NCBI GenBank assembly: GCA_018970445.1
Contig: JAGWWF010000027.1
Location: forward strand, 1-45,874
Length of the DNA stretch: 45,874 nucleotides
Direction: 5' to 3'
Source: Alphaproteobacteria bacterium
GTDB taxonomy: Bacteria > Pseudomonadota > Alphaproteobacteria > Sphingomonadales > Sphingomonadaceae
Position numbers and translations under genes: made by a program. Numbering within the stretch: position 1 is the stretch's first letter; each line of letters begins with the position of its first letter. Of the stretch, positions 8,001 through 41,678 are shown in pieces. The notes below the pieces were generated by a model. The model did not search any database, had not been told where the DNA came from, and saw only the letters and a program-made list of their open reading frames with translations.

Positions 8001-8114
8001 CTGGTCTGCAGCGCTGACCGCCCCGGCAGCGGGTTGCTGGGCCGCTTGCGCCAGGGCGCCGGTGGCGGCGCTGGCCAGCAGCAATCCCGCAAGGTGATGG
8101 CGGATGTGAGTCAT
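5001..8114 (-). CDS. TonB-dependent outer-membrane receptor in the dctA unit
   Basis: A 1037-residue TonB-dependent transporter. It has a signal peptide (about residues 1-22, ending TGALA), a Gln/Ala/Ser-rich linker to about residue 57, then EIVVVGTLIRG opening the plug, and the conserved IYGSDAVAGVVNTVLRD segment near residue 190. The barrel ends in Phe (ASMMKAF). The start has a good Shine-Dalgarno site (CAGGGAG, about eight bases upstream). It lies 21 bases after the dctA stop on the same strand and overlaps the following hydrolase by TGATG. dctA, this receptor and the hydrolase therefore form one unit covering outer-membrane entry, hydrolysis and inner-membrane dicarboxylate uptake. Confidence 0.93.
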   Translation of the reverse strand: MTHIRHHLAGLLLASAATGALAQAAQQPAAGAVSAADQSSQPAQSGLIDMAEQQAANEIVVVGTLIRGAKATGALPVIVLDTNKIDATGAVSGDELIRSIPQMGDVSFNPSNNAQTSNAARGDVGSIDLRGLGVGSTLVLVNGRRVVTNAASQGLSDTGTVPVLSYNSNALPITSLQRLEVLLDGAAAIYGSDAVAGVVNTVLRDNYDGVRASVQYGGGEGTHLREFQSNLLAGTRWKSGSVTASFEFTQRTALRAEDQDYTATADQRRYFVGTPFEGVTGADTRNTRGVWPALNTPTTNGTIRQGTRALTTAAGSFHIRPVSFGSCAAQLPNQPQDICLVNTTLPTTGVFRDLRYDTARGTTVLPQVSRYNFFLNGRQEVSDNLELFTEIGMYYADTDRIQPAVINLNPIWIPAGSYWNPFGPVEFPNGQANPNRIAGLTNVPATGLPVRMNNYRFADTGPQTVNVQSTQARLLIGLRGETLGFKWDSALVYSQATSLDRSSAVKSSLLQRSLAQQTPAAYNPFNGGCVADLGFGDCTPSSQQAIDSIMFTLRRFSKTTLAMGDFRASNARLFALPAGPVGLALGVEVRRETQFDDRDSAVDGSAPFIDAVTGEVTLSDAAAVSPNPDTGGGRTIAAAFAEFAVPVISPDMNVPLIQSIDLQIAGRFEHYSDFGSIARPKIAAAWVMFDGLKLRGSYSEGFRAPNLEQTNALQYARNALAQDYIRCEADLRARRITDFTRCGNNPNFSRVVAGNPALEPETSRNLTLGVVLEPKFLPSALGQLSFTVDYWRIDQRGLVGVLGNEIALAQDYLLRLQGSSNPAVVRATPTADDVAFFAGTGLAPAGTVLQVLDQFRNLRPQTVRGLDFGAYWTLPDTAIGSFELAVNATRMLEFSRDPGDAVDALVAARAAGQINIATPLPETANLLEANGRPKWRGLATLTWTLGRFQLGAAARYTGRALETGFVDPQGNPWVIKDQLTANTYAQYRFGDKRDGFRFRVGVRNITNEAPPLTSEGFNGFLYNPIPRYWYASMMKAF

Positions 8115-28170: not shown

Positions 28171-30349
<2,179 letters not shown>

Positions 30350-32328: not shown

Positions 32329-33543
32329 CTATTCAAAAAACGGAAGTGAAGGATCGGCATCGATGCCGGCCACCACGGCCAGATGGTGCAGAAACGCCCG
32401 CTGCACCGGGCTGGGTTGCCAGCCATGGCGCAGCACCGCGCCGATGCGGCGGGGCGGGATGGCCAGATCGGCATCGATCGCCACCAGCAGGCCGGCGGCC
32501 AGTTCCACCCGCACCTGTTCGGGCGAGAGCAGGGTGAGGCAATCACTGGCCAGCAGCAGTTCGCGGATGGTCATCACGCTGCCACAGGCAACCGGCGCGG
32601 GCGGCCGCTGGCCGGCAAACAGCGCCTGCCACTGCGCCGCCAGGGGTGAACCGGCGCGGCCCGTCACCCAGGGAAAGCCGGCCAGCGCCGCGCGGCCGGC
32701 CTTGTGGCCGGCCAGCGGGTGGCCGGCGCGCGCGATCACCGCCGGGCAATCGCTGAGCAGCGGCCATTGCACCAGATCGGCCGGGGCCGGATCGCGCAGC
32801 GCGCCGATCATCAGGTCGATCGCGCCATCGCGCAGCCGCTCGGCCAGATCAGCCCAGGCGCCTTCCACCACATCCACCGCCACGCCGGGCCAGGCCGGCA
32901 GCAGCCGGGCCAGCGCCGCCGGCACCAGCCGCGCGCGCGACAAGGGCATGGCCCCGATGGCCAGCCGCACCGGGCCGGCGGGCGGCTGCGCCGCTTCCAG
33001 CCCGGCGCGATATTCGGCCACCACCAGCCGCAAGTGCCGGGCCAGGCCACGCCCGCCGGCAGTGAGCGCCACGCCGCGCCCGCGCCGTTCCACCAGGCTC
33101 TGCCCGGCCAGCCGCTCCATTTCGGCCACCGCCCGGTGCAGCGCCGGGCCCGACAGCGACAGGCGCGGCGCGGCTTCGGCATAGCTGCCGGCATCGGCCA
33201 GCGCGAGGAAGGCGCGCAATTGCGCCATGCCCAGATGATTGACCGGGTTGAAGCCGCGCCGGCTGGCCCGCGCCAGCGCCGTGGCCAGCCGTTCATCGGC
33301 GGCGCTGATGCGCGCCGCCAGTGCCGCGCCGGCCGGGGTGGCGGCCATGCCGCCGGGCAGGCGATCAAACAGGCGGGTGGCCAGCCGGCGTTCCAGCTGG
33401 GCCAGGCCCTGGGCCAGCGCCGGCTGGCTGATGCCGATGGCGCTGGCCGCGCCGCCCATGGTGCCGATGCGGGCAATCACCGGCACGGCGCGCAGGTGGC
33501 GCAGGTTGAGGCGATAGAGGGGTTCCATGCCAGACTTAACCAT
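32329..33543 (-). CDS. LysR-type regulator with two winged-helix domains
   Basis: A 404-residue activator, about 100 residues longer than a standard LysR protein. It has two N-terminal winged-helix domains in tandem: about 12-75 ([32 protein letters not shown]...) and about 102-165 ([36 protein letters not shown]...). A LysR effector domain follows from about 190 ([19 protein letters not shown]). It is divergent from ligK and upstream of DUF1932-ligJABC, so it is well placed to control both arms of protocatechuate breakdown, as LigR does. The start is ATG 33543 or ATG 33528 (MEPLYRLNL); neither has a clear Shine-Dalgarno site. Confidence 0.88.
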
Positions 33544-33622
33544 GGCTTATGGGGCGGGCGCAATTCCGTCTTTGTGCCCGCTGCGCGCTTTGGCAGCGCA
33601 GGCGCGACGCCAGGGGAGGGTG

Positions 33623-34292
33623 ATGATGGCCGGAATCGTGGTGCAGAACATCGAACGCGCCGATGCGGCGGTGATCGCCGGGCTGGCCGCTGCTGGCGTG
33701 GCCACGGTGCACGAGGCGCAGGGGCGCACCGGCCTGCTGGCGGCGCACATGCGGCCCATCTATGCCGGGGCGCGCATCGCCGGCAGCGCGGTGACCATCT
33801 CGGCCCCGCCGGGGGACAACTGGATGCTGCATGTGGCCATCGAACAGGTGCGGGCGGGCGACATATTGGTGCTGGCCCCCACATCCCCGTGCGAGGATGG
33901 CTATTTCGGCGATCTGCTGGCCACATCGGCGCAGGCGCGCGGCTGCCAGGGGCTGGTGATCGATGCCGGGGTGCGCGACGTGCGCGATCTGGCCGCCATG
34001 GGCTTTCCGGTGTGGAGCAAGGCGGTGTTTGCGCAAGGCACGATCAAGGCGACGCTGGGCAGCGTGAACGTGCCGATCGTGTGTGCCGGCGCGGTGGTGA
34101 ATGCCGGCGATGTGATCGTGGCCGATGATGATGGCGTGTGCGTGGTGCCGCGCGCCCGCGCCGCCGATGTGCTGGCCGCCGCCCAGGCCCGCGAGGCCGC
34201 CGAAACCGCCAAGCGCGCCCGGCTGGCAGCGGGGGAGCTGGGGCTGGATATCTATGCCATGCGCGACAAGCTGGCAGCGATGGGCCTGAAAT

Positions 34293-34300
<8 letters not shown>
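33623..34300 (+). CDS. ligK: 4-carboxy-4-hydroxy-2-oxoadipate aldolase
   Basis: A 225-residue RraA/HMG-aldolase-family enzyme. It performs the last step of the pathway, splitting 4-carboxy-4-hydroxy-2-oxoadipate to pyruvate and oxaloacetate. Divalent-metal/substrate motifs are [11 protein letters not shown] (Gly96-Asp97) and IDAGVRD (Asp114, Arg118, Asp119). ATG 33623 follows AGGGGAGGG; ATG 33626 is equally possible. The 79-base gap to the LysR start should hold both divergent promoters; I could not pick a clear LysR box. It overlaps the next gene by eight bases. Confidence 0.95.
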
Positions 34301-36208
<1,908 letters not shown>

Positions 36209-36220
36209 ACCAGGCCCGGT

Positions 36221-37861
36221 TCAGGGGGCCATGCCGCTGTCCATCCAGCGGCGGAACAGGGCGATGCGTGCATCATCCCAGCGGGCGTCGCACGGCATGG
36301 TGCCATCGGCCAGACGTTGCAGGATATGCCCGGCCCTGGCCTTGACCGTGGCATAATCGAACAGATCAAAGGCCCCCAACATGGCCTGGCGATCAAAATC
36401 GCGGAACAGCGGCCGGATATCGGCGGCAAAGCCGGGGGTGGCCGGGGCATGGCCGCCGGGCGGCGGGGTGGGGCTGGCGGCCGGATGGGCGGGCAGGGTG
36501 GCGGCGGCCCCGGCGTGCGATACCGCCAGCAGCACGGCAAAGCTGGTCTGATCGATCGTCACCCGGATGAAATGGGGGCCGGGGGGCACGCGATTGCCGG
36601 CGGCATCCTTGATGTCCCACGCGATGCTGGTGGCACCGGCGGCCGGGCCCGTGCTGTCGGCCAGGGTGCGCACCAGGCTGCCAAAGCGGTTCCACACCGT
36701 GACCAGCAGCGTGCCCGCCCCGGCCGGAATAGTGAAATCCAGCCGATAGGGATCGGCCGGCACCGTGCGCGGGGTGGCCGGCGGCATCACCGCCGTCTGG
36801 CCGGGGGCCAGGCGATACACCCCGTCGCCCGAAGCAAAGACGCTGTGCACCGGATCGCCGATGAAGCGGAACCGGTTGAGATTGCGGCCCACCTCGTTGG
36901 CGTTGCGCCAGTTCAGGCCGCCATCGCTGGTGGCGCTGGTGGCGCCGGTGATGCCATCCTGATCGCCCCAGCCGCCGATCCAGCCGATTTCCGGCGTGAG
37001 GAAGCCGATGCCTTCCAGATTGGAATTGCGCTGGGCGTCGTTGATCTTCAGCCGCGCCCAGGTGGCACCATTGTCATCGGATCGCAGGATCGCGCCATCG
37101 CGTTCATTTTCCAGCGCCACCACCAGGGTGGATGGCGGCAGAAACTGGATTTTCCAGCCCCATTCGCCGCGCGGGAACTGGCGCACCAGATCGGGCGCGC
37201 CGGCCAGATTGGTCCAGGTCGCGCCGCCGTCGCTGGTGTGCAGCACCACCGGGATCATGTCGTTGCGATCGACCACCCGGCCGGGGATCTGCAGGGCATC
37301 GCGGCCGCCCACCACCCAGCCTTCGCTGGCATTGCGGAAAAACACATCGATCAGCATGGAGGCATGGGCCGCCATCGGGATGGCCTGCCAGCTGGTGCCG
37401 CCATCGCTGGATTTCATCAGGCCGGGCGGTTCGGCCGGGTTGTTGGTGCCCGACAGATAGATGGTGGTGGCATCGGCCACGCTCAGGCCGCAGATGCGTC
37501 CTGGCACCGCCGCCGGCAGATCGACCCAGGCCCAGCTTGCGCCGCCATCGCGTGTAGCCAGCAGGCGTTTGGCCAGCGTGGGCGCGCCATCGTCGCCGCG
37601 ACCGCCCACAGTGCCCACCCAGCCGATCTGATCGGTGGCAAAGCCGATGCAGCGCAGCCAGATATCGGGCACATGAAATTGTTCCGTCCAGTGATCGCCG
37701 GCATCTGTGGTCTTGAGGATCTGGCCGTGGCAGTTGACCGTCCAGCCGTTGTTGCCATCCAGAAACCAGATATCATCGTTGCGCATCACCACCGGCGCGT
37801 TGGTTTTCACCCAGGATGACGCCAGCAGCGCCTCCATCTGTGCCTGGCCCGTGTTGGTCAT
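36221..37861 (-). CDS. Asp-box beta-propeller protein with FlgD-like Ig module
   Basis: A 546-residue protein of unknown function with no signal peptide (MTNTGQAQMEALL...). Residues 25-355 hold six Asp-box (BNR/Ycf48-like) repeats of form S/T-x-D-x-G-x-x-W at about 51, 103, 151, 210, 261 and 311. Residues 365-448 resemble the FlgD Ig-like fold (LLVTVWNRFGSLVRTL, SIAWDIKDAAGNRVPPG, FIRVTID). A Pro/Ala linker (455-475) leads to a short C-terminal helical module, 478-546 (FAADIRPLFRDFD...GTMPCDARWDD), a segment I have seen at the ends of assorted oxidase-type proteins. ATG 37861 follows GGGGG. It is divergent from the methyltransferase at 37955, with 93 bases between, which suggests a shared regulatory region. 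Confidence 0.8.
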   Translation of the reverse strand: MTNTGQAQMEALLASSWVKTNAPVVMRNDDIWFLDGNNGWTVNCHGQILKTTDAGDHWTEQFHVPDIWLRCIGFATDQIGWVGTVGGRGDDGAPTLAKRLLATRDGGASWAWVDLPAAVPGRICGLSVADATTIYLSGTNNPAEPPGLMKSSDGGTSWQAIPMAAHASMLIDVFFRNASEGWVVGGRDALQIPGRVVDRNDMIPVVLHTSDGGATWTNLAGAPDLVRQFPRGEWGWKIQFLPPSTLVVALENERDGAILRSDDNGATWARLKINDAQRNSNLEGIGFLTPEIGWIGGWGDQDGITGATSATSDGGLNWRNANEVGRNLNRFRFIGDPVHSVFASGDGVYRLAPGQTAVMPPATPRTVPADPYRLDFTIPAGAGTLLVTVWNRFGSLVRTLADSTGPAAGATSIAWDIKDAAGNRVPPGPHFIRVTIDQTSFAVLLAVSHAGAAATLPAHPAASPTPPPGGHAPATPGFAADIRPLFRDFDRQAMLGAFDLFDYATVKARAGHILQRLADGTMPCDARWDDARIALFRRWMDSGMAP

Positions 37862-37954: not shown

Positions 37955-38908
37955 ATGGACAAGATCAGCAACACGGCGCTGGCCGATTTCCTGGCCGTTC
38001 TGGGCGATCCGGCCGAACAGACGCGGTTTCGGGCCGATCCGCACGCCGCCATGGCGGCCCATGGCGTGCCGGCGCTGGCCCGCGCCGCGCTGCTGGCCGG
38101 CATGCCGGAATGGGTGGAATCGCTGGCCTTTGCCGAACTGGAAGCGCTGCGCCCGCCGGTGCCGGCGCTGCCGCTGGCGCCGCCGGCCGGGCCGGGGCGC
38201 GGCCTGACCGTGGTGGGCACCGGCATGGATGTTGGCCAGTTGACGCACACGGCCCGCCTGGCCATCGCGGCAGCGCCCAAGCTGCTGTACAGCGTGGCCG
38301 ATCCGGGCAGCGAGCGGCTGCTGCTGGCGTTGAACCCCAATGCGGAATCGCTGCAGGGCCATTATCGCGAAGGCGCGCCGCGCATCGACATCTACAATGC
38401 CATGGTGGCGCGCATCATGGCCTGCCTGCGCGCCCATGGTGATGTGTGCGTGGCGCTCTATGGCCATCCCGGCGTGTTCGCCCATGCCGGCCATGCCGCC
38501 ATTGCTCAGGCGCGCGCCGAAGGCCTGCCGGCGCGGATGCTGCCGGCGGTTTCGTCGCTGGATAGCCTGTGGGCCGATCTGGGTGTTGATCCGGCCAGCG
38601 GCTGCGTGATTCAGGAAGCCACCGATTTCCTGACCCGCAACCGGGCGGCGGTGGCCGATCTGCCGTTGATCCTGTTGCAGATCGGGGCCACCGGCGATCG
38701 CCGGCTGCCGCCCGGCGGCAAGCGCGGCCAGGGCCTCCCGCTGCTGGTGGCGCTGTTGCGGCAAAGCCATCCGGCCACGCATCCGGCCATCATCTATGAA
38801 GCTGCCACACTGCCGCTGTTCGGCCCGCGCATCATCACCACCAGCATCGCCGCGCTGCCACAGGCGGCGGTGACCGATCGTTCGACACTCTTTCTGCCCG
38901 CGGTTTAG
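37955..38908 (+). CDS. Borosin-type peptide N-methyltransferase with N-terminal clasp-like domain
   Basis: A 317-residue SAM-dependent enzyme of the tetrapyrrole-methylase fold (about 82-315). It follows the fungal borosin alpha-N-methyltransferase OphMA rather than cobalamin or sirohaem enzymes: VVGTG (86-90), the catalytic-type triplet Tyr137/Arg143/Tyr147 in HYREGAPRIDIY, YGHPGVF (169-175), ARMLPAVSSLDSLWADLGVDP (in part) and EATDFL. The end RSTLFLPAV falls where the OphMA catalytic domain ends. Residues 1-65 are helical (DFLAVLGDPAEQTRFRADP...ARAALLAGM) and resemble the OphMA clasp/borosin-binding domain and LigA-like folds. A Pro-rich linker (67-80) joins them. No core peptide follows. 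ATG 37955 has AAGGGGGG upstream. Other methylations cannot be excluded. Confidence 0.8.
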   Translation: MDKISNTALADFLAVLGDPAEQTRFRADPHAAMAAHGVPALARAALLAGMPEWVESLAFAELEALRPPVPALPLAPPAGPGRGLTVVGTGMDVGQLTHTARLAIAAAPKLLYSVADPGSERLLLALNPNAESLQGHYREGAPRIDIYNAMVARIMACLRAHGDVCVALYGHPGVFAHAGHAAIAQARAEGLPARMLPAVSSLDSLWADLGVDPASGCVIQEATDFLTRNRAAVADLPLILLQIGATGDRRLPPGGKRGQGLPLLVALLRQSHPATHPAIIYEAATLPLFGPRIITTSIAALPQAAVTDRSTLFLPAV

Positions 38909-38909
38909 G

Positions 38910-39028
38910 CTCGATTGCGCTTTGACTGAACCGCTCATGCCGAGCGTGTCGAGGCACGTTCCAAACGGCGTGCGTGCCTCGACAAGCTCGGCATGAGCGG
39001 ATTTCGATTCAACCCAGACGCAATCGAG
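38910..39028. repeat. Nested large palindrome, bidirectional terminator or dispersed repeat
   Basis: Two 27-bp arms (38931-38957 and 38974-39000) starting CCGCTCATGCCGAGC pair with one mismatch around a 16-base loop. Outer 10-bp arms CTCGATTGCG / CGCAATCGAG lie at 38910-38919 and 39019-39028. It fills the 141 bases between two convergent genes, beginning two bases after the methyltransferase stop. The inner core (GAGC-TTGTCGA-GGCAC-type) resembles a repeat I have often seen dispersed in sphingomonad genomes. Confidence 0.8.
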
Positions 39029-39049
39029 TCTAGGGCCGGCAGCGCGCCA

Positions 39050-41453: not shown

Positions 41454-41678
41454 TCAATTGCCGCCCGGCACCACCAGCAGGATCATCGCCTTGTTCAGGC
41501 TGTGGGTGTCCACCTTGGTGATGGCGGCACCGCCCGTCATGCCGCGCAGCTTCTCGGCGGCGGCATTGGCGTCGTCCGAACCGGAGCCATCGGCCGGAAA
41601 ACAGGCCACGCTATTCATGACATGGAACGCACCATCATGATGCACCACATAGACGGAATCCGTGCTGTCGTTGCTCAT
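41454..41678 (-). CDS. Small hypothetical protein, 74 residues
   Basis: I do not recognise this protein. The sequence starts MSNDSTDSVYVVHHDGAFHV, has one Cys (CFPADGSGSDD), an Ala-rich helix (DANAAAEKLRGM) and a short hydrophobic end (AMILLVVPGGN). There is no signal peptide or membrane segment. A strong Shine-Dalgarno site (GAGGGGAAG) precedes ATG 41678, an AT-rich promoter-like patch lies upstream (GATTATTAAC), and a hairpin follows the stop. These make it a credible real gene despite its size. It stands alone between the TIR gene and tRNA-Pro. Confidence 0.65.
   Translation of the reverse strand: MSNDSTDSVYVVHHDGAFHVMNSVACFPADGSGSDDANAAAEKLRGMTGGAAITKVDTHSLNKAMILLVVPGGN

Follow-up and report, generated by a model that had tools for sequence, protein, structure and literature searches.

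A predicted borosin-type peptide alpha-N-methyltransferase preceded by a borosin-binding domain and lacking a recognisable core

In the well-studied borosins, the substrate is attached to a borosin-binding domain (BBD), which is part of the same chain as the enzyme or of a precursor encoded separately. The locus studied here raises the question of what a borosin-type enzyme modifies when such a domain stands in front of it in the same chain and no core follows. The window, i.e. the whole stretch of 45,874 nucleotides that was analysed, is contig 7 of a genome of 3.03 Mb, which consists of 45 contigs and is rated 99.99% complete. The gene occupies positions 37955–38908 of the forward strand, to which all coordinates within the gene refer, and forms a single open frame from ATG to TAG encoding 317 residues. 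The GC content by codon position indicates one coding frame through BBD, linker and enzyme, with GC3 values of 0.75–0.90 along the ORF; coordinates, strand and length had been given correctly in the original prediction. Sequence, Pfam, phmmer, AlphaFold2 and Foldseek together divide the CDS into a BBD, a Pro-rich linker and a borosin-type alpha-N-methyltransferase. Codon 69 is a GTG, from which translation could also begin; the product would then be an enzyme that lacks the BBD.

The catalytic domain comprises residues 83–317 (38201–38905) and was assigned by means of Pfam, phmmer and Foldseek to the TP_methylase fold of the SonM and OphMA kind. Pfam PF00590 (TP_methylase) matches residues 84–299 with an E-value of 7e-18. 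A phmmer search against the sequences of solved structures yielded E-values of 7.7e-41 for SonM, 3.7e-40 for OphMA and 1.1e-39 for dbOphMA. At E ≤10, 33 distinct sequences of this set match the protein. The best 25 are borosin enzymes (SonM, OphMA, dbOphM, MroM), all with E ≤1.2e-26; the others are one phycoerythrin (0.72) and seven SonA sequences (0.9–1.6), which align to approximately residues 7–57. Tetrapyrrole enzymes are not represented among the 33. The AlphaFold2 model of the whole protein, based on an alignment of 38 rows (A5), has a mean pLDDT of 87 and a pTM of 0.81. Comparison of this model with solved structures, which had been suggested as a check against OphMA and SonM, placed SonM (7ltc_A) first with an E-value of 4.9e-25 and 40% identity, and the best 50 of 744 Foldseek matches are without exception borosin enzymes.

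The active site was compared with that of SonM by means of sequence alignment and A5. Y137, R143 and Y147 (codons within 38363–38395) correspond to Y58, R67 and Y71 of SonM. Within the motif YGHPGVF (38459–38479), Y169 and F175 correspond to Y93 and F99. In SonM, Y58, R67, Y71 and Y93 are core-binding residues, according to excerpts of PMC8429565. All 38 rows of A5 contain R143, Y147 and Y169, and 33 of them contain Y137. Y137, R143 and Y147 as well as the motifs YGHPGVF, LPAVSSLDSLWADLGVDP and EATDFL are present as originally noted. The accompanying statement that the domain follows OphMA almost residue for residue proved too strong: the active-site residues are there, but identity in the fold alignment is 36–38%, and SonM is at least as close with 40%. 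Taken together, sequence matches, predicted fold and active-site residues support the borosin identity claimed for the gene, and the ORF is by sequence and predicted fold a borosin-type peptide alpha-N-methyltransferase.

Two further elements of SonM, whose roles are likewise taken from excerpts of PMC8429565, have a counterpart in the alignment. The first is the loop 208–216 (AANLPIQAP), around which the BBD of SonA wraps. It corresponds to residues 283–291 (AATLPLFGP; 38801–38827), and five of the nine residues are identical. The second is W166, the "bottom lock", whose place is taken by L241 (codon 38675–38677) as judged from A5. This position contains a Trp in 35 of the 38 rows and a Leu in three, namely the window protein and the enzymes of loci L030 and L094. 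The bottom-lock Trp is thus a feature of SonM that is absent from the window protein, and it is not a demonstrated family-defining trait.

Residues 1–65 (37955–38149) were identified as a BBD on the basis of a BBD profile, AlphaFold2 and Foldseek, with five predicted helices within residues 8–65. In the full-length model these helices span residues 8–15, 19–27, 29–35, 40–47 and 51–65, and the first strand of the enzyme begins at residue 83. When residues 1–62 were modelled alone (32 rows), five helices were obtained as well, with a mean pLDDT of 85. In order to gather BBD sequences, BBD-like ORFs were searched within 3 kb of the enzyme gene in 85 loci, 79 of which stem from a contig scan of the best 80 matches among 555 relatives; the last round yielded 40 stretches at ≤0.01, the window included. 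The final profile consists of 36 unfused bacterial BBD sequences, some of them near-identical to each other, and excludes the window sequence; the latter took part in the iterated search by which the 36 were gathered, which introduces a slight bias in its favour. Applied to residues 1–80, this profile gave 32.5 bits, whereas 2000 shuffled versions of this stretch reached 13.9 bits at most. In a Foldseek search with residues 1–62, 38 matches were obtained, which comprise 27 SonA chains, nine fungal borosin chains, LigAB and one ChpT. The top 16 are all SonA BBDs, with rmsd values of 1.0–1.3 Å and approximately 30% identity. The E-values are weak, the best being only 0.061; the domain is small. 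Profile, five-helix model and fold matches thus bear out the helical clasp- or BBD-type domain that had been proposed for the N-terminus.

A distinction from LigA is required at this point, since the LigA structure 1bou_A ranks 17th in the Foldseek list of the front domain. Scored with Pfam LigA, the front domain reached 15.2 bits, which is below the cut-off of 25.3. Conversely, the true LigA of the window (29949–30245) scored 15.9 bits with a BBD profile that gave 62.2 bits for the front domain, the window sequence being a row of that profile. An assignment by family library alone was dropped: at E ≤0.1, Pfam LigA matches 23 and NCBIfam IniB_NTERM 24 of the 32 members of the BBD alignment, so that these labels do not separate BBDs from LigA- or IniB-type bundles. 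The best E-value among the 24 IniB_NTERM matches is 1.5e-9. Hence, the BBD call relies on the profile, the fold and the context. The structures of LigA and the BBD are related, and both may belong to one superfamily with the N-terminal domains of IniB. Further proteins with the front domain had been suggested as a target for a genome-wide search; no second convincing BBD was found in the source genome, as the other six matches at E ≤10 score at most 18.0 bits, and one of them is the true LigA.

BBD and enzyme are connected by a linker that comprises residues 66–82 (RPPVPALPLAPPAGPGR; 38150–38200) and was delimited by means of the sequence and the AlphaFold2 model. Seven of its 17 residues are Pro, and it contains no core of the hydrophobic type. 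The pLDDT falls below 50 at residues 74–78, helix 5 of the BBD ends at residue 65, and the first strand starts at 83. The chain ends with the enzyme, and no core lies behind the catalytic domain. The predicted Pro-rich linker in front of the enzyme and the lack of a core behind it were thus confirmed, with a C-terminus that is even shorter than in relatives. In some split precursors (L012, L013), the BBD is followed by a Pro-rich stretch and, further on, by a hydrophobic segment; in the window protein, the enzyme occupies the place of the core.

With a probability of roughly 0.55, we consider the protein to be a SAM-dependent peptide-backbone alpha-N-methyltransferase with a built-in N-terminal BBD that acts in trans on a separate peptide. 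As no recognisable substrate is attached, the enzyme probably modifies a separate peptide. From the evidence given here we infer docking geometry, catalytic activity, trans mode and fusion route as follows. The leader part of an upstream precursor gene, i.e. its BBD, would have been fused to the adjoining methyltransferase gene, and the core would have been lost or left elsewhere. By analogy with SonM and SonA, the BBD would dock on the loop 283–291 as a permanent clasp. The active site with Y137, R143, Y147 and Y169 would then act on a peptide or protein tail provided in trans and methylate its backbone amides. Three observations argue for the trans mode. Firstly, no core lies behind the enzyme, and only 17 residues separate BBD helix 5 from the first strand. 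Secondly, the source genome, rated 99.99% complete, contains one enzyme match and one convincing BBD. Thirdly, a protein of the same form exists in another organism, locus L007, whose genome (a Planctomycetales MAG) also contains one convincing BBD. Directly upstream of the L007 fusion, a coiled-coil protein encoded by a frame of 476 codons ends with GGGGSGGGGGNIPVVVVIIG; a Gly-rich stretch precedes the terminal NIPVVVVIIG. It is plausible that this NIPVVVVIIG is a separate core. On the other side, only one species of the genus was found to carry the gene, the putative BBD upstream of the enzyme of L030, its sister in the enzyme tree, scores only 9.9 bits, and the pairing with L030 joins two long branches.

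L007 is one of three among the 79 loci of the contig scan (best 80 matches of 555 relatives) in which a BBD precedes the enzyme in one frame, the others being L035 and L066. The profile of 36 BBD sequences also finds these three, with 40.1 bits for L007, 32.4 for L035 and 30.8 for L066. L007 is 42% identical over residues 5–315 and is the only one of the three with a short linker as in the window. L035 and L066, both from Micrococcaceae, possess a big extra N-terminal part, and their BBD and enzyme are separated by approximately 90–100 residues, some of which form an Asn/Thr-rich stretch. Within the order of the L007 genome, matches were found in 4 of 45 genomes, its own included; the four other matches cover the enzyme part only, and each is accompanied in its locus by a BBD ORF that is not fused to it. 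In 36 loci from the whole-genome searches and the search of the L007 order, the profile detected a BBD in front of none of the 28 enzyme ORFs. It located a BBD behind the enzyme in three of these ORFs (L093, L094, L099) and elsewhere in the short stretch in 13. The unfused BBD ORFs lie upstream of the enzyme gene in 22 of 36 cases and downstream in 14.

Some of these loci showed further arrangements. In L093 and L094, the enzyme is followed by a weak BBD and then by long repetitive tails (EQHETEQHEAEQH..., AELNDAAELND...), which makes them fused borosin-like proteins. L117, located on plasmid p155_2 of Bradyrhizobium sp. 155, contains a split BBD precursor and an enzyme, with a second borosin-like TP-methylase, a TauD-type dioxygenase and a prolyl oligopeptidase adjoining; this may be a borosin cluster that encodes a protease or cyclase of its own. 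In L062 (7848–9644), two methyltransferase domains lie in tandem in one ORF, after two BBD precursors. In L002, L003 and L004, i.e. in three genomes of the same order, the enzyme gene adjoins a protein that looks like TPR/GGDEF, these domains having been named by eye.

In a tree of 110 enzyme domains, L030 is the sister of the window enzyme (SH-aLRT 87), which sits on a long branch; according to a warning by the program, this pairing unites two long branches. L011 is as near as L030 by path and has the highest identity to the window enzyme, namely 50%. After removal of L030, the window enzyme moved and again joined a long branch. L007 was placed elsewhere in the same tree, in a set of 17 rows (support 95). 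A tree in which window and L007 were constrained together was not rejected (p-AU 0.377), while the unconstrained tree places them apart, with the window enzyme outside all starred sets. One or several fusion events are therefore possible. In L030, the ORF with the weak BBD match has a Pro-rich tail and runs to a stop at 8023, and the enzyme may start with a TTG at 8013, which would give an overlap of 11 nt. This overlap makes a fusion by a small frame change plausible, and from an arrangement of this kind a fusion would plausibly be easy to reach.

At ≤0.001, matches to the enzyme were found in 6 of 148 genomes of relatives, the own genome included, and two of these are weak. The other 23 genomes of the genus contain no match to the enzyme gene, which places it in a single species of the genus. 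In the family, 4 of 397 genomes contain a match, the three besides the own genome being weak. With the own genome always included, the counts are 6 of 396 for the order, 7 of 385 for the class and 16 of 398 for the phylum; these genome sets overlap. No relative of the enzyme was found in viral contigs.

Beside the two options that had originally been proposed, a trans-acting enzyme and a peptide-independent descendant, a third one is that the protein modifies itself. In that case the linker 66–82 would serve as the core, as in type 0 borosins, and its non-Pro residues would be methylated by the own or a partner subunit, perhaps after helix 5 of the BBD had partly unwound. Judged from the sequence, V69, A71, L72, L74, A75 and A78 could in principle be N-methylated, and V69 falls at I65 of SonA if the BBD alignment is extended without gaps. 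Type 0 borosins with an N-terminal core and a C-terminal enzyme are described in excerpts of PMC11395268, and the segment between BBD and enzyme in L035 and L066 could be such a core. The geometry of SonA speaks against this assumption. Its BBD comprises residues 1–53, the linker 54–61 and the core 62–71, of which L63 and I65 are methylated (PMC8429565, excerpts). The methylated residues lie 10–12 positions beyond the BBD, and by lengths alone, i.e. without the use of coordinates, a linker of 17 residues is probably too short to run through the active site and back to the N-terminus of the enzyme. Helix 5 of SonA was unwound in one mutant complex (PMC8429565, excerpts), which would lengthen the linker, so that it might be methylated after all. 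Nevertheless, the linker is short, seven of its 17 residues are prolines without an amide hydrogen, it does not resemble the hydrophobic cores with which many split precursors end, and the linker of L007 differs in sequence. We consider self-methylation less likely than action in trans, yet a serious rival to it.

A second alternative is a decaying or repurposed descendant, that is, a borosin gene that was acquired, has lost its core and was truncated at its 3' end by a palindromic, MITE-like insertion; it would have little or no activity, or the BBD would serve as a fold-stabilising cap. This alternative derives from the C-terminal end. In all 36 compared rows of A5, the chain continues for at least 16 residues beyond the last ones of the window protein, which lacks this tail; L035, which had been shortened in A5 by hand, was left out of this count. 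A nested, MITE-like palindrome of 127 bp (38906–39032), identified by means of inverted repeats and DNA folding, starts at the stop codon TAG and ends with CTA. Its 28-nt arms are 96% and 75% complementary, and none of 200 shuffles was as stable as its DNA fold (z -12.25). An exact match of its 15-base core pattern was not found elsewhere in 181 loci. The palindrome resembles a MITE-type insertion at the 3' end of the gene and may have cut off the C-terminal tail; combined with the loss of the bottom-lock Trp, the missing tail may point to an altered or lost function. The long branch in the enzyme tree, the absence of a match from the other 23 genomes of the genus and the weakness of the three other matches in the family are also in agreement with decay. 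In contrast, the frame is intact, the catalytic and docking-loop residues are kept, the change from Trp to Leu also occurs in L030 and L094, and the last residue blocks were modelled with a mean pLDDT above 90. A descendant in decay is likewise a less likely explanation, but also a serious rival.

That the fusion is a frameshift of sequencing or assembly, which joined two overlapping genes for BBD precursor and enzyme, is suggested by the 11-nt overlap in different frames that may exist in L030; it is very unlikely, as the codon-position GC holds one frame throughout, the genome is nearly complete in 45 contigs and the same fused form exists in L007. A tetrapyrrole, diphthine or rRNA methylase that merely resembles borosin enzymes can practically be dismissed: it would share Pfam PF00590, and weak matches to NCBIfam YabN (34.6 of 525 bits) and CobI (16.9 of 163.25 bits) exist, but these are far below the cut-offs, the best 25 of 33 solved-structure sequences are borosin enzymes, the core-binding residues are kept and a BBD lies in front, so that the better match to cobalamin, sirohaem or diphthine methylases named beforehand as a refutation did not occur.

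For an enzyme acting in trans, the neighbourhood was inspected for substrates. A screen for hydrophobic C-termini retained 2 of 579 window ORFs of at least 40 codons, one of which is antisense to the enzyme gene. The other is an ORF of 74 residues on the reverse strand (41454–41678), whose C-terminus SLNKAMILLVVPGGN resembles the SonA-like tail KAFLLIVNPSE of L048. It has no match in NCBIfam or among plasmids and no Pfam match near a cut-off. Because the base rate of the screen is 7 of 612 coding-like long ORFs, this ORF is only a weak candidate for a separate core and not significant on its own. As a speculation to which we assign a low probability, the leader may have become a permanent part of an enzyme that no longer depends on BBD-tagged precursors and N-methylates backbone amides in hydrophobic C-terminal tails of ordinary proteins, such as the NIPVVVVIIG adjoining L007 and perhaps the 74-residue ORF. 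If this were true, backbone N-methylation would be a protein modification and not a step of natural-product making.

On the other side of the enzyme gene, at a distance of 93 bp, lies a divergent gene on the reverse strand (36221–37861) that codes for a YCF48/BNR-type protein with a FlgD_ig domain. It has no close match in 23 congeners; the best one among these other genomes of the genus shows 30% identity (1.5e-24). A promoter scan gave no site. Three relatives match the window through the amidohydrolase gene (35336–36208), and this match ends at 36192–36196, which suggests that the YCF48 and enzyme genes are part of an accessory region. A role of the YCF48-like protein as a substrate or partner is not supported: its homologues on rhizobial plasmids adjoin genes for a tyrosinase, a metalloprotease and an oxidase, and a borosin enzyme is annotated in neither of the two regions inspected. 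The window further contains, at 29105–30245 on the reverse strand and approximately 7.7 kb from the BBD-bearing gene, the LigA and LigB subunits of a dioxygenase (Pfam, 93.7 and 267 bits), as well as RraA-like, PrpF and amidohydrolase genes at 33527–36208, which are compatible with a set for protocatechuate 4,5-cleavage.

Enzymes that N-methylate the backbone of ribosomal peptides are wanted for drug-like peptides. With a natural enzyme that has a built-in BBD and no core of its own, it could be tested whether substrates must carry the leader domain themselves or whether this domain is required just as a clasp.

How does the window protein compare with known systems? One of its closest counterparts is SonM/SonA, the type IV split borosin of Shewanella oneidensis (PDB 7ltc and others). 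The enzymes are 40% identical in the fold alignment, Y58, R67, Y71 and Y93 are kept, and the front domain matches the BBD of SonA at 1.0–1.3 Å. In contrast to SonA, the BBD of the window protein is covalently linked in front of the enzyme, a SonA-like core is lacking, W166 is replaced by Leu, and nothing corresponds to approximately the last 20 residues of SonM. The type IV feature of separate genes for enzyme and BBD precursor is absent, as both parts share one frame. With the fungal fused borosins OphMA and dbOphMA, the protein has in common that enzyme and clasp or BBD reside in one chain, and the enzyme domains are 36–40% identical; their order is reversed in the window protein, where the BBD precedes the enzyme and a C-terminal core is missing. 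Types I–III are arranged as enzyme, clasp and C-terminal core, whereas the window protein ends with the enzyme. With respect to LigA of the LigAB dioxygenases, the BBD is a LigA-like helical bundle, yet Pfam LigA gives 93.7 bits for the true LigA of the window compared to 15.2 for the front domain.

For the remaining types, the comparison follows the descriptions in excerpts of PMC11395268, which cites Lee 2024, Imani 2022 and Cho 2022. Type 0 possesses an N-terminal core and a C-terminal enzyme, and in type XI (XulAM) a C-terminal enzyme stands behind a domain of unknown function. Compared with these descriptions, the window protein also carries its methyltransferase at the C-terminus but has neither an evident core-like segment nor an extra N-terminal domain. 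At the position of the type 0 core, only the 17-residue Pro-rich linker is found, and in place of the unknown front domain of type XI there is a BBD. With an N-terminal part, a BBD, an Asn/Thr-rich segment and the enzyme in this order, L035 and L066 resemble type XI or type 0. Members of "class 2" have a BBD fused to the enzyme and a core on another chain; the window protein agrees with this description in that its BBD is fused to the enzyme and a core is not evident in the chain. The originally proposed inverted architecture was correct with regard to the order of BBD, linker and enzyme without a core, while its novelty is weaker than assumed: as types 0, XI and "class 2" are in print, a reversed order is not new in itself. 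Among the titles and abstracts retrieved from the open-licence borosin literature, no coreless fusion with the BBD first is described. If published members of type 0 or class 2 include exactly this form, the window protein is one more such member; what is uncommon about it is the minimal, coreless combination of BBD and enzyme.
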